Position numbers and translations under genes: made by a program
NCBI RefSeq assembly: GCF_002923755.1
Contig: NZ_PGFZ01000007.1
Span: 109,704 to 173,703 of the forward strand
DNA from: Methylovulum psychrotolerans
GTDB taxonomy: Bacteria > Pseudomonadota > Gammaproteobacteria > Methylococcales > Methylomonadaceae
Direction of reading: 5' to 3'
Length of the DNA stretch: 64,000 bases
Shown here: positions 10,268 through 21,547 of the stretch, in pieces
Layout: the number at the start of each line of letters is the position of its first letter
Numbering within the stretch: the stretch's first letter is position 1
Notes under the pieces: generated by a model
Database searches by the model: none
The model's input: the letters and a program-made list of their open reading frames with translations, nothing else
What the model was told of the DNA's origin: nothing

Positions 10268-12067
10268 ATGGTCTTGACGCTGGCCGAAGAAGAGCAATGG
10301 CAGGAATTTAGCCGTCATGTCGAATGGGCGGAGCGGTTTTGCCTGATTATCTTGTTTGTTGAAGACGCGCTGCTGGCAGGGCAGTTCCTGCAACGCTTGC
10401 AGAACCAACTGCAAGGCCAAGTCTCTAGCTTGCATATTCTTAAGCCCTCGCGCCCTGAAAGCTTAGCCGCTGATATTTTTGAGGATTTGCGGCGTTGTTT
10501 AGTGCCGCATACCATCGTGCCGTGCTGGCTGGAATTGCATCAACACCGCTCGCCGGAATGGCAACGGGCTTTGGATAATTTTTTCGCCCGTTTTAATGAA
10601 AACCGCGACCGTATCCGCCGTGACTATCCGTGTCCCTTTATCATCCTTTTACCTGTAGCGTACAAAAGCCGCTTGCGGGAAATAGCCCCTGATTTATGGT
10701 CGGTCAGAAACCATACCGATGAATTGCGGCTTAGCCAACAGGCACCAGTTCGGCGTAGTTATCATGAGTATGTCACGCCCAAATCCGGCGCAACACCGTT
10801 AACAGTGAGCGAACAGGCCTTAATGAGACCGGAAATCCGTGAATGGCAGCGGGTGCAGTCTCTGGAGATGGCGGATGATGAGCGGTTTTTGGTGACGATA
10901 GATGCATTTGATGAGGCCTTAGAGTCTGGGCAATGGGCGTTGGCTGAGGGTCTAGCCCAGCAATTGCTTACCCTTAGCCATAATATACTGGCCGATGAAG
11001 GCGAAACGACCTCGGCTTTGCGTAAGCTGGGTATCGCTTTAGATGGATTGGGGAATATAGAAAAAACAATGGGGCGTTATGATGCCGCTTATCAAGCTTA
11101 TGTCAGCTGTTTACAGATTGACCGCGAATTAACCACAAATGCCAATCCCCAAATATTGCGGGATTTAAGTGTCTCGTTGGGCAAGGTAGCCGATATTGAT
11201 AGTATTTTAGGCCGTTATGATGCCGCTTATGAGGGTTATGCCGAAAGCTTGCAGATTTGCCGAGGGTTAAAGGATTGCTTGGGCGATAGTCCCCAAGCAT
11301 TGCGGGATTTAAGCGTCTTGTTAAACAAAGTGGCTGATATTGATAAGATATTAGGCCGCTATGATGCCGCCTATAAGGACTATGCCGAAAGTTTGCAGAT
11401 TCGCCGAGAGTTAAAAGACCGCTTGGGCGGCAGCCCAGAAGTGTTGCGGGATTTAAGCGTCTCATTAGACAGGGTTGCCGATATTGATAAGATTTTAGGC
11501 CGTTATGATGCTGCCCATACAGGCTACGCCGAAAGCTTGCAAATTCGCCGAGGGTTAAGGGATGGCTTGGGCGATACTCCCGGAGTGTTGCAGGATTTAA
11601 GCGTCTCATTAGACAGAGTTGCCGATATTGATAAGATTTTAGGCCGCTATGATGTCGCCTACAAAGGCTATGCCCAAAGCTTGCAGATTCGCCGAGGATT
11701 AAAGGATAGTTTAGGTGAAACTCCCGAAATGTTGCGGGATCTAAGCGTCTCACTAGAAAAAGTGGCCGATATTGATAGCATCTTGAACCGTTACGAGGTC
11801 GCCTATAAGGGTTACACTGAAAACTTACGGATTTGCCGAGAGCTAAAAAATAGGTTCCGGGTAACACCTCAAATTCTCCGGGATTTAGGCATTGCTCTTG
11901 AAAAACAGGCGGATTGTCTGTGTCGTTTAGGACGTGACGGACAGGCCTTAGCGGCATATCAGGAATGTTTGCCTTTATTGGAGCGCTTGCAAGCTGCGCT
12001 CAGTTACGATGAGTATCCAGAACGCATTGCCAAGATAAAACAAGCGATTGCCGATTTAGATAAGTAA
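10268..12067 (+). CDS. tetratricopeptide-repeat protein with near-identical 48-residue repeats and an unassigned N-terminal domain
   Basis: The protein has 599 residues, starting at an ATG preceded by AGGGGAC. Residues 1 to about 215 form an unassigned alpha/beta-looking domain (FCLIILFVEDALLAGQFL, later PCPFIILLPVAYKSRL). It has the flavour of P-loop/STAND N-termini but no Walker A. Residues of about 250-570 are TPR-like: seven units of about 48 residues built on the pattern LRDLSVSLxKVADIDxILGRYDAAYxGYAESLQI. Units 2-5 are almost identical. There is no signal peptide or membrane segment, so it is likely cytoplasmic and a protein-interaction scaffold. The function is unknown. It is convergent with the following phosphoesterase gene. 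Confidence 0.75.
   Translation: MVLTLAEEEQWQEFSRHVEWAERFCLIILFVEDALLAGQFLQRLQNQLQGQVSSLHILKPSRPESLAADIFEDLRRCLVPHTIVPCWLELHQHRSPEWQRALDNFFARFNENRDRIRRDYPCPFIILLPVAYKSRLREIAPDLWSVRNHTDELRLSQQAPVRRSYHEYVTPKSGATPLTVSEQALMRPEIREWQRVQSLEMADDERFLVTIDAFDEALESGQWALAEGLAQQLLTLSHNILADEGETTSALRKLGIALDGLGNIEKTMGRYDAAYQAYVSCLQIDRELTTNANPQILRDLSVSLGKVADIDSILGRYDAAYEGYAESLQICRGLKDCLGDSPQALRDLSVLLNKVADIDKILGRYDAAYKDYAESLQIRRELKDRLGGSPEVLRDLSVSLDRVADIDKILGRYDAAHTGYAESLQIRRGLRDGLGDTPGVLQDLSVSLDRVADIDKILGRYDVAYKGYAQSLQIRRGLKDSLGETPEMLRDLSVSLEKVADIDSILNRYEVAYKGYTENLRICRELKNRFRVTPQILRDLGIALEKQADCLCRLGRDGQALAAYQECLPLLERLQAALSYDEYPERIAKIKQAIADLDK
11156..11875 (+). repeat. five 144-bp in-frame tandem repeats inside the TPR gene
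   Basis: Units start at 11156, 11300, 11444, 11588 and 11732. Each encodes 48 residues beginning LRDLSV or LQDLSV and containing VADID and GYAES or close variants. The DNA is very similar between units (for example the stretch encoding ADIDKILGRYD recurs). A degenerate unit precedes them and another follows from 11876. Confidence 0.9.
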
Positions 12068-15265: not shown

Positions 15266-15748
15266 ATGCCCTCTTTTGATATTGTTTCTGAATTTGATAA
15301 ACATGAGTTAAAAAACGCGGTCGATCAGGCCAGCAAAGAAGTGGATACCCGCTTTGATTTTAAAGGCACGGATTCGTCGGTGACGTTAACCGATGAGAAA
15401 ATTGTCATGGTGTCGGAGTCTAACTTCCAGTTACAGCAGATTTTTAGCATCGTCTGCGCCAAACTCAGCCGACGCGGGATTGATATTGCTTGTATGGAAC
15501 TTGGCGATGCCAAAGGTAGCGGCAAAGCCATGCGCCAAGAAATCACTTTAAAGCAAGGCCTAGATTCGGCGATGGCGAAAAAAATCGTCAAATTGATTAA
15601 GGACAAGAAACTGAAAGTGCAAGCGGCGATTCAAGGCGAGCAAGTGCGGGTAACCGGAAAAAAACGCGATGATTTGCAGGAGGTTATTCAGATGCTGCGT
15701 GACGAGAAGCTGGAAGTGCCGTTGCAGTTTGAGAATTTTCGGGAGTGA
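15266..15748 (+). CDS. YajQ-family nucleotide-binding protein (UPF0234/DUF520)
   Basis: The 160-residue protein has the full family pattern: MPSFDIVSEFDKHELKNAVDQASKE, TRFDFKGT, a central SRRGID block and the C-terminal VRVTGKKRDDLQEVIQMLR. YajQ-type proteins are small cytoplasmic proteins with two RNP-like folds. Some bind cyclic di-GMP (reported for Xanthomonas); whether this one does is not visible. It lies 41 bp downstream of cca, so the two may be co-transcribed. Confidence 0.93.
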   Translation: MPSFDIVSEFDKHELKNAVDQASKEVDTRFDFKGTDSSVTLTDEKIVMVSESNFQLQQIFSIVCAKLSRRGIDIACMELGDAKGSGKAMRQEITLKQGLDSAMAKKIVKLIKDKKLKVQAAIQGEQVRVTGKKRDDLQEVIQMLRDEKLEVPLQFENFRE

Positions 15749-15954
15749 CGGACGCGCAGCCCAGACAAGGTGGCCTGTACGGTGGATTTTTGTGCGGGGC
15801 ATGGTCTATTGTTGTGCATAAAGTCGGCATAGTATGCCCCTTTGTTTGGCTAAGTGTTGCCTTTAAACGCTTGGAGGCTAGGGGGCTGCTATTTTTGTGA
15901 TATACCTCACAAAAATATTGCATTTTAAGATAAACGGGGTTAGTCGTCTTGGTG

Positions 15955-16170
15955 ATTTGCCCACAGCAAAAATCAAGCACTTAAGCGGAGCTTGCCGATC
16001 CGCCATCTATTGCCATATATAATATAACTCTATGATAAATAAAAATAATAAAATTGGCTTATATTTATACAATTTAACAAAACTGTAACAAAAACCGCCA
16101 TTAAGCGTTAATTTTTACAAGTAATCCACAGAGTTATCCACAGGTTTTGTGTATAACTTTTTTAGCGGCC
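15955..16170. repeat. module 1: AT-rich segment plus DnaA-box cluster
   Basis: The module starts with TTGCCCACAgcAAAAATCAA, then very AT-rich DNA (about 16010-16085). DnaA-box-like sites follow: TAATCCACA (16122-16130, one mismatch), TTATCCACA (16134-16142, perfect to TTATNCACA) and, in inverted orientation, TGTGTATAA (16148-16156, complement of the perfect box TTATACACA). It is repeated about 310 bp further on. Confidence 0.75.
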
Positions 16171-16261
16171 ACTGTTTGCCGCCGCCAGCGGCTATTCTTG
16201 CCCCAAACTGGGTCAAGAAAAAAATGTAGGGCTTTTTAGGCGAACGGTTTTGATTCAACAA

Positions 16262-16478
16262 TAGTTGCCCACAGAAAAAATCAAAGACTTGGCGTGTGTT
16301 CACAGATAAGCCCATGATAATTTTTTGTAAATGCAACTGATTGATATTTCTTATTTTTATGAGATTGATCGATATTTGTACAATCTGACAAAACACTAAT
16401 AAAAACCGTGCTTAACCCGTAAAGCCGACATTTTGTCCACAAAGTTATCCACAGCTTTTGTGTATAACTTTTATGGCC
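16262..16478. repeat. module 2: second copy of the DnaA-box module
   Basis: This is a diverged direct repeat of module 1 at an offset of 307-311 bp. It shares the opening TTGCCCACAgaAAAAATCAA, the TATTTrTACAAT..CAAAAC stretch and the closing box cluster: TTGTCCACA (16433-16441, one mismatch), TTATCCACA (16445-16453) and inverted TGTGTATAA (16459-16467), then GGCC. The box spacing is the same as in module 1, though the flanks have diverged. Confidence 0.75.
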
Positions 16479-16819
16479 GATTAGGTGCGGATAAATGCCG
16501 CTGTTAACGGCAATTTACGCCTGTTTATAAGCCCTGTTAATGGTTTCCTGTATTTTTGTCCGCGTTTTAGGTTAAAATAGGCGGCTTTCAAAGCTGGACG
16601 TATGAGAAGCAACGGTGACTTTAAAAACGCTATCTCATTGGCTTTGGACGACTGCATCTGGCCTGCGCATTTCTCGATGCAATGGTGTCTTAAGCGTCAC
16701 CTACAAGGCTGTGGTTATGGTTGTCCATTAGTCCCAGTCCGAACCAAGCCCTCTTGAGTTTTAAGGTTCATGAGTGGTCACCCAAAAGTTTTTTATGCCC
16801 AACCTTTCAGAGTAAACAC

Positions 16820-18907
16820 ATGACAGAATTATCGCATTACAGAAATATCGGTATTTTCGCGCACGTCGATGCCGGTAAAACCACTACCACCGAGCGGATT
16901 TTAAAGCTCACCGGTAAAATTCATAAAATCGGTGAAGTGCACGACGGTGCGACCACCACTGACTTTATGGATCAAGAACGTGAACGTGGTATTACCATCC
17001 AATCAGCGGCAACCACTTGTTTCTGGAAAGACTACCGTTTCAATATCATTGATACTCCAGGTCACGTTGACTTTACTATTGAAGTATATCGTTCTTTAAA
17101 GGTATTGGACGGCGGTATTGGCGTGTTCTGCGGTTCTGGCGGTGTCGAACCCCAATCTGAAACCAACTGGCGTTATGCGAACGATTCGAAAGTATCGCGG
17201 GTTATTTATATCAACAAGTTAGACCGTATTGGTGCTGACTTCTACCGCGTTGTTAAGCAAGTAGAAGAAGTATTGGGCGCTAAACCTATTGTTATGACAT
17301 TGCCTATTGGCCGTGAAGATGAATTCGTCGGCGTGGTCGATGTGTTAACTCGCCAAGCGTGGATCTGGGATGATTCTGGGGATCCAATGAACTACACCAT
17401 CCAAGACATTCCTGCCGATATGGTTAAGGATGCCGAAATGTGGCGCGAAAAGCTGATTGATTCGGTTGCCGACCAAGACGACGATGTCATGGAAAGATAT
17501 CTGGAAGGCGAAGAGCCGACTATCGAAGAAATTAAAATGTGCTTGCGTAGAGGCACTATTAAGATGGACTTCTTCCCGACTTTCTGCGGTTCATCTTTCA
17601 AAAATAAAGGTGTGCAGTTGGTTCTGGACGGTGTGGTTGATTATCTGCCTTGCCCAACCGAAGTTCAGCCACAGCCTGAAGTGGATTTGGAAGGTAACCC
17701 GACTGGCGAATTTGCTACTGTGGATGCTAGCAAACCCTTACGCGCTTTGGCGTTTAAGATTATGGACGACCGTTTCGGCGCGTTGACTTTCTTGCGCATC
17801 TATTGCGGTAAATTGGAAAAAGGCACCTCGGTGCTGAACACATTTACCGGTAAAACTGAGCGTATTGGCCGTATCGTCGAAATGCATGCCGATACGCGTA
17901 ATGAGTTGGAATCTGCGCAAGCGGGCGACATTGTTGCCGTATTGGGTATGAAGAACATCCAAACTGGCCATACCTTGTGTGACCCTAAGTTCCCTGCGAC
18001 ATTGGAGCCTATGGTATTCCCTGATCCTGTTATCTCGTTGGCGATTTCGCCTAAAGATAAGGCCGGTTCAGAAAAAATGGGTATTGCTTTAGGTAAGATG
18101 ATCCAAGAAGATCCGTCTTTCCACGTTGAAACTGACGAAGACAGCGGCGAAACCATTCTGAAAGGTATGGGCGAGCTGCATTTGGATATTAAGGTTGATA
18201 TTTTAAGACGTACGCATGGCGTTGACGTTCTTGTCGGTAAACCACAAGTCGCGTACCGTGAAACCATCACCAAAGCGATTGAAGACGATTATACCCACAA
18301 GAAACAATCCGGCGGTTCCGGCCAATACGCGAAAATCAACTATAAAATCGAGCCAGGCGAGCCAGGTAGCGGTTTTGTGTTTGAATCAGCGGTAACCGGC
18401 GGTAACGTGCCACGCGAATACTGGCCTGCGGTGGAAAAAGGCTTTAAGAGTATGCTTGATAAAGGCGTACTGGCTGGCTTCCCTTGCTTGGATTTGAAAG
18501 TCATTCTGACAGACGGTGGTTTCCATGCGGTTGACTCCTCATCCATCGCTTTCGAAATCGCGGCAAAAGCGGCGTTCCGCCAATCAATCCCTAAAGCGGG
18601 CCCGCAATTGATTGAACCGATCATGAAAGTGGACACGTTCACCCCTGAATCTCATGTCGGTGACGTGATCGGTGACCTTAACCGTCGCCGTGGTATGATC
18701 AGATCACAAGATCCAGGCATCACCGGTGTCCGCATTAAGTCTGATGTGCCGTTGAGCGAAATGTTCGGCTACATCGGCGATTTGCGTACTATGACCTCAG
18801 GCCGTGGCCAGTTCTCTATGGAGTTCTCGCACTACATGCCATGTCCGAAAAACGTCGCTGACGAAGTGATTAAAGAAGTCAACGAACGCAACAAAGCAAA
18901 AGGCTAA
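16820..18907 (+). CDS. fusA: translation elongation factor G
   Basis: This ribosomal translocase GTPase has about 695 residues. GTPase motifs are visible: AHVDAGKT (G1, about 14-21), ERGITI (G2 region), DTPGHVD (G3) and NKLD (G4). Domain IV and V signatures follow ([20 protein letters not shown], then [12 protein letters not shown]). The ATG at 16820 is chosen because [21 protein letters not shown] is the normal EF-G N-terminus; the open frame extends upstream to a TTG at 16721, which would add 33 unrelated residues. It is not next to rpsL, rpsG or tuf, so it may be a second EF-G copy (EF-G2 type) rather than the str-operon gene. Confidence 0.93.
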
Positions 18908-21028: not shown

Positions 21029-21547
21029 ATGGCAAAAATTACTAAATTGTGCGTTGGTGAATCATTAGTTGGCGACGGCAACGAAATCGCTCACATCGAC
21101 TTGATCATTGGCCCAAGAGGTTCAGCTGCTGAAACTGCTTTCGCAACTGCTTTGACTAACAACAAAGACGGTTTCTCTACTCTGTTGGCTGTTGTTGCTC
21201 CTAACCTGATGGTTAAACCTGCGACTATTTTGTTCAACAAAGTCACTATCAAAGGTTCTAAACAAGCCGTACAAATGTTTGGCCCAGCACAACGTGCTGT
21301 TGCTATGGCTGTTGCTGATTGTGTTGAAGACGGCACTATCCCAGCTGACGAAGCTGACGACCTGTTCATCTCTGTTGGTGTATTCATCCACTGGATGGCT
21401 GAAGACGACGCGAAAATTGAATCTTTCAACTACGCTGCAACTAAAGAAGCTCTGAAACGCGCTGTAGACGGTTCACCAACCGCTGCTGAAGTTGTTGCTG
21501 CTAAAAAAGACGCAAAACACCCATTCGCTGTTAACAACGAAGCGTAA
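21029..21547 (+). CDS. fae: formaldehyde-activating enzyme
   Basis: Fae catalyses condensation of formaldehyde with tetrahydromethanopterin to methylene-H4MPT, the entry to the H4MPT oxidation pathway and main formaldehyde detoxification in methylotrophs. At 172 residues it has the family length and opens [31 protein letters not shown]. It contains the proposed catalytic His in AHIDLIIG and the conserved [20 protein letters not shown] strong ribosome site (AGGGG) precedes the ATG. The uniform codon choice (many GCT, GTT, AAC, CTG) suggests high expression. A strong terminator follows. This gene is the best indicator of the organism's C1 lifestyle. Confidence 0.98.

Follow-up and report, generated by a model that had tools for sequence, protein, structure and literature searches.

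We find that the intergenic space upstream of fusA in Methylovulum psychrotolerans probably holds two DnaA-reactivating sites of DARS type in tandem, a reading drawn from site arrangement and from comparison with E. coli and related genomes. DARS convert ADP-DnaA back to ATP-DnaA, and this recharging of DnaA has been worked out in E. coli. For the two M. psychrotolerans units, each about 200 bp long, we infer the same activity from their layout, which on the minus strand runs from a three-box core through a Fis-like site, an IHF-like site and an inverted IHF consensus to a weak fourth DnaA box (box IV). We call this unit a new DARS variant, here doubled upstream of fusA.

The pair lies in a 64,000-nt stretch of contig NZ_PGFZ01000007.1 (hereafter 'the window'), in the gap of 1,071 bp (15749-16819) between the end of yajQ (15266..15748, plus strand; NF003819, 227.6 bits, cut-off 146) and the start of fusA, encoding elongation factor G (16820..18907, plus strand; TIGR00484, 958.2 bits, cut-off 659.4). 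The first-pass annotation, made from the letters of the window, had described a gene-free spacer of 1.07 kb between cca and fusA; the length stands, but it is yajQ that adjoins the gap on the left, and cca lies further out. The two minus-strand ORFs of the gap (98 and 93 aa) had no family match in NCBIfam at E 1e-5 or in Pfam at E 0.01, and we reject an RNA gene, as an Rfam search of 15500-17000 gave zero matches up to E 1. A promoter scan of the gap was uninformative (1 site, 2.9 expected). Both modules are thus intergenic, as DARS are.

Each module contains, in plus-strand order, a one-mismatch DnaA box (16122, TAATCCACA; 16433, TTGTCCACA), then after 12 nt a perfect box TTATCCACA (16134 and 16445, plus strand), and after another 14 nt an inverted perfect box TTATACACA (16148 and 16459, minus strand). 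The paired modules had been reported by the first-pass annotation; the boxes are where it placed them, and they are not a chance pattern: exact TTATNCACA occurs eight times in the window against 1.89 expected, with eight or more in none of 100 shuffles, and the three-box geometry (≤ 4 mismatches of 24) is found twice in the window but in none of 20 random order-1 windows. The modules form a 119-nt direct repeat with 74% identity, 311 nt apart, and a further 26-nt repeat (88%) lies at 15957 and 16265, with a spacing of 308 nt. At these same two positions lies a weak fourth box, TTGCCCACA, with two mismatches, which had gone unmentioned. The AT-rich segments noted earlier to the left of each module are present as well, and contain the Fis-like and IHF-like sites.

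Read along the minus strand, the core of copy 1 (16122..16156) consists of box I TTATACACA, box II TGTGGATAA after 14 nt and box III TGTGGATTA after a further 12 nt, which is the spacing and orientation of E. coli DARS1, with one mismatch of 24. Beyond the core come a Fis-like site at +51 (16056..16070, minus strand, one mismatch), an IHF-like site TATCATAGAGTTA at +84 (16025..16037, minus strand, one mismatch), a second, inverted IHF consensus at +138 (15971..15983, plus strand, perfect) and the weak box IV TGTGGGCAA at +156 (15957..15965, minus strand, two mismatches). Copy 2 repeats this plan: a core on the minus strand at 16433..16467 (box I TTATACACA, box II TGTGGATAA, box III TGTGGACAA; one mismatch of 24), a Fis-like site at +51 (16367..16381, minus strand, one mismatch), a perfect IHF consensus TATCAATCAGTTG at +86 (16334..16346, minus strand), a perfect inverted IHF consensus at +141 (16279..16291, plus strand) and box IV TGTGGGCAA at +159 (16265..16273, minus strand, two mismatches). 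Outside the cores, the sites to be read with caution are therefore both Fis sites and the first IHF site of copy 1, with one mismatch each, and both box IV sites, with two.

The core that DARS share is described as comprising three equally spaced boxes, with box I opposed to boxes II and III (PMC5742627), and the head-to-head pair I/II is given as characteristic of DARS and functionally essential (PMC10380432). In the window we find the three boxes, the opposed box I and the spacing (14 and 12 nt) and orientation of E. coli DARS1 (bioD-uvrB, core L140:2108-2142). According to PMC4585315, DARS1 works without protein factors, whereas the window units carry putative Fis and IHF sites; the 140 nt after the DARS1 core contain neither a forward IHF site with ≤ 1 mismatch nor an exact reverse IHF or Fis site. 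The three-box core of DARS2 (rppH-mutH, core L141:2136-2170; three mismatches of 24) is likewise similar to that of the window, and the two share IHF and Fis consensus sites, an intergenic location and further DnaA boxes beyond. At DARS2 we matched two IHF sites 3 bp apart, each with one mismatch (+58, inverted, and +74), and then a perfect Fis consensus (+110), in agreement with the layout given in PMC4245941, in which IBS1 and IBS2 are 3 bp apart and shift experiments put IBS1-2 between the core and FBS2-3. The order of sites is thus core-IHF-IHF-Fis in DARS2 but core-Fis-IHF-IHF-box IV in the window, and we therefore do not file the window pair as DARS2, even though IHF and Fis sites stand beside the core in both; the spacing also differs, the neighbours are yajQ and fusA rather than rppH and mutH, and two units stand in tandem. 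Compared with the +74 site of E. coli, the window IHF site is shifted away from the core by about one helical turn, which may mean that the phase of the bend is kept.

The spacing of these sites is strongly constrained among related modules. A 721-bp blastn query around the finding matched 50 of 61 genomes, often at several places per genome, and the loci fetched yielded 36 distinct modules with ≤ 4 core mismatches, all from the same family as M. psychrotolerans (three mirror matches were dropped). IHF sites with ≤ 1 mismatch stand at +84 to +86 in 32 of the 36, 23 of them perfect, with an average of 0.06 at offsets beyond the top six; at 16 of the 21 non-tandem loci yielding modules from blastn the match that found the locus ended before the IHF site. 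A Fis site with ≤ 1 mismatch is found at exactly +51 in 31 modules (only six perfect; the next best offset has four), and the Fis hallmark G-N13-C at +51 in all 36. Box IV with ≤ 2 mismatches occurs at +155 to +172 in 32/36 modules (15 with ≤ 1 mismatch), compared with at most 7/36 in other windows of that width. The inverted IHF site (≤ 1 mismatch) is less general, being present at +138 to +142 in 16 modules and elsewhere in at most two. All nine tandem-type units, from our genome, G013, G015, G019 and G006, have it, always 18 nt before box IV, while the fusA-side units at L020, L022 and L027 are without inverted IHF and without box IV. The family alignment, window modules included, also contains a conserved block GGTTTTTATTACAGTTTTGTTAAATTG at about +24 to +50, between the core and the Fis site, which fits none of the DnaA, Fis and IHF consensus sequences; its right part is visible in loci from across the class too. 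In G006, three R1 matches (see below) stand in a row at the fusA locus of this congener (C52:5093-5878), so that unit number varies from one to three.

R1, a sequence profile built from 34 modules, matched 59 of 61 relatives (E 0.01), 319 of 370 genomes of the class (E 0.001), a tally that may include core-only or origin matches, the full plan having been checked in the 27 top-scoring loci, and 156 of 249 genomes in a draw from the phylum, where the best score outside the class was 45.3 bits. The boxes are conserved in relatives, and the lack of conservation that the first-pass annotation had named as counting against its proposal does not apply. Of the 27 best-scoring new class loci, 25 had the Fis site at +51 and 23 had IHF at +85/86, two features that belong to the R1 model and are so favoured in these loci; box IV, which is outside the model, was at +167 to +170 in 22, with other offsets averaging 0.05. 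In M. psychrotolerans itself only the two window units exceed 45 bits (97.6 and 95.9), followed by matches of 44.3 bits (positions 2-119) and of 35.8 bits and below, including one that spans positions 3-136 at 25.5 bits. E. coli DARS1 was matched by R1 in positions 3-52 only. Separately, genomes of family f188 (same phylum, other class; 1.6-3.1 Mb) have up to nine R1 matches each, many nearly full-model.

Scanning named genomes for boxes II and III plus IHF recovered at least 118 stretches, 80 of which were listed and gave 81 matches, mostly in beta- and gamma-proteobacteria by title (Methylotenera, Polynucleobacter, Psychrobacter, Massilia, Comamonas, Legionellales and others). Box I was present at the DARS position with ≤ 2 mismatches in 54 of the 81 matches listed, compared with two or fewer at each slid position, leaving 27 of those listed without a recognizable box I. 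A Fis site with ≤ 1 mismatch preceded the IHF site by 33 nt in 32 of the matches listed and by 34 nt in 12, with no double counting. As 22 of the 81 listed are near-uniform, with IHF at +82 and mostly from Methylotenera and its kin, they are not independent. One stretch with the pattern (L258, JACSSB010000124.1) is on a contig labelled Phycisphaerales, where a binning error is likely.

As for the proteins concerned, the M. psychrotolerans genome encodes IhfA and Hda above cut-offs and a Fis-type ORF of 99 aa that scores 81.7 bits, below the cut-off of 99. G032 has neither a Fis hit nor the element. We do not use the co-occurrence of Fis with the element as evidence, given that G002 has a Fis hit and no element, while the fragmented genomes G001, G009 and G013 have the element without a Fis hit.

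One gene, priA, recurs as a neighbour of the element. A gene coding for PriA adjoins it at 17 of 30 family loci, 15 of 35 class loci (27 from the class search and eight from the phylum draw) and 23 of the 80 named loci listed; other neighbours are hrpA, purA, dnaE, fusA and more. Including the rest of the at least 118 stretches, 72 loci had a PriA match, with a core (≤ 4 mismatches) in 54 and none in 18. The core had the same orientation in 54/54 measurable loci, mostly 60-140 bp upstream of priA; 46 of these cores lay upstream of the priA start, and for the other eight, where PriA was matched only from residue 172 or later, the start is extrapolated. In E. coli, the priA-rpmE region contains no core (best, nine mismatches of 24). 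The tandem units have fusA beside them in all genomes but G015, whose fetched stretches reach only hrpA. DnaA and DnaN were found beside the element at none of the 30 family, 35 class and 80 listed named loci (flanks of 1.5 to 8 kb at most), which rules out that the R1 matches at those loci are copies of oriC.

Such linkage raises the question of whether the units are rather DnaA-controlled promoter regions of the adjoining gene (fusA here, priA in many relatives). The single orientation and short distance to priA are what this would lead one to expect, and E. coli DARS1 and DARS2 themselves are placed in the promoter regions of uvrB and mutH (PMC5835720). Here, though, about 370 bp separate fusA from the nearer core, units also occur near dnaE, purA, hrpA and others, and the fusA loci L026, L030 and L038 contain no exact TTATNCACA in the stretch fetched, so that fusA does not always depend on this motif. 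We consider promoter control unlikely to be the explanation, noting that it can be compatible with DARS-type sites. Quite improbable, in our estimate, is passive titration, or a datA-like site, in which the boxes would only sequester DnaA or, together with IHF, promote ATP hydrolysis and so inactivate it. The first-pass annotation had suggested a second DnaA-binding locus, and was right in kind; its datA-like titration comes near, but the box geometry is that of DARS. The window does have perfect DnaA boxes, with IHF sites between the box groups, and E. coli datA likewise combines DnaA boxes with one IHF site outside oriC (PMC5742627). A sink, however, could do without a fixed opposed pair and without Fis and IHF sites placed at exactly +51 and at +84 to +86, respectively, and opposed boxes I/II are given as characteristic of DARS (PMC10380432). 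As described, datA stimulates ATP hydrolysis, which would set it apart from DARS-type units. That the feature is a dispersed mobile repeat which happens to carry DnaA boxes is very improbable: there are several loci per genome, tandem copies and, at +24 to +50, a block that is conserved without resembling any known site, but the spacing of DnaA, Fis and IHF sites is fixed among diverged copies, and the linkage to priA, in one orientation, recurs in class-level loci.

To a replication origin, chromosomal or left by an integrated replicon, we give almost no credence, although DnaA boxes beside AT-rich DNA had made the region a candidate origin in the first-pass annotation. Both dnaA and mnmG are on another contig (C23) than the window (C67), and an oriC in the window is ruled out by this location, by GC skew and by the box cluster at dnaA-dnaN (C23:80749-81346), where 11 exact boxes lie within 600 bp and both genes are confirmed by family models. 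Boxes are common to that oriC and the window, but those of oriC are mostly in one-orientation runs and its best R1 match is of 26 bits (positions 17-83), whereas the window boxes are opposed and form no array; C67 has just 12 exact boxes in 294 kb, four of them in the feature. An mnmG-linked origin is ruled out too, as the 4.8-kb mnmG locus of M. psychrotolerans contains zero exact boxes. GC skew, the check that had been suggested, changes sign at dnaA-dnaN in the complete, sampled genome of the congener G019 and not at the finding: the four 20-kb pieces from 1.20-1.28 Mb are negative overall and the four from 1.28-1.36 Mb positive, with seven boxes at 1281130-1281561, directly after dnaA. Further out in G019 this pattern continues, except for slightly positive values at 1 bp, 0.94 Mb and 1.00 Mb and values around zero at 1.40-1.6 Mb. 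On C67 the skew is positive in 15 of 15 pieces over 294 kb, with no sign change. We reject a plasmid origin, as there was no match to the feature among the 72,556 plasmid records of PLSDB, and the earlier idea of remains of an integrated replicon is not supported either, given this result, the core genes at both sides and the R1 matches in 59/61 relatives. The G019 tandem pair lies about 80% along the arm that leads from dnaA to the point facing it on the circular chromosome (worked out by hand from coordinates), compared with the mid-arm position of DARS2 in E. coli. We claim no position rule, because distances to dnaA scatter in the complete relatives G029, G027, G041, G055 and G056; the M. 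psychrotolerans genome is in 97 contigs.

If the units are DARS-type sites, then by analogy with E. coli DARS1 and DARS2, ADP-DnaA would sit head to head on boxes I and II, aided by box III, and bending by Fis and IHF would bring the flank into contact with the core and perhaps with box IV. ADP would then be released and DnaA would rebind ATP, so that more ATP-DnaA would be available when replication next starts from the dnaA-dnaN origin.

DARS outside E. coli are not new as such, since DARS1- and DARS2-like sequences have already been published for many proteobacteria (PMC10380432). In the openly licensed PMC literature, represented here by partial texts, we found no description of the core-Fis-IHF-box IV order, of the priA link or of a tandem pair. 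The fixed plan in most sampled class genomes, the other order of Fis and IHF and the priA link suggest that recharging is old and widespread, with the E. coli layout as one of its versions, and that non-enteric bacteria could be studied at ready-made target sites. There is also a caution for origin-finding programs, as DnaA boxes can cluster like this next to AT-rich DNA without marking an origin. A more far-reaching scenario, which we offer tentatively and regard as rather doubtful, is that the priA-upstream core-Fis-IHF-box IV unit is the ancestral recharging site of the Gammaproteobacteria, broadly taken to include the Betaproteobacteria, tying the energy state of DnaA to PriA restart. E. 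coli DARS1 and DARS2 would then have been derived after its loss, the +24 to +50 block might serve a further partner or hold weak DnaA sites, and the unit would have moved to the fusA region and doubled in the methanotroph lineage.

Elsewhere in the M. psychrotolerans genome, the partial R1 match of 44.3 bits (C89:81600-81717; L101:8601-8718) adjoins a TraN-like conjugation gene (435.6 bits; cut-off 603), so that this organism may have a DARS-type core on a plasmid-like or integrative element. At C5:35312-35334 (L100:8313-8335) there is a symmetrical pair, TTATCCACA-N5-TGTGGATAA, followed after about 150 nt by a gene that resembles TamA/BamA but scores below model cut-offs. Within the window, a gene for formaldehyde-activating enzyme lies at 21029-21547, which points to a Methylomonas-like methanotroph, and a 599-aa ORF at 10268-12067 has several near-identical repeats of about 45-50 residues that by eye appear TPR-like.
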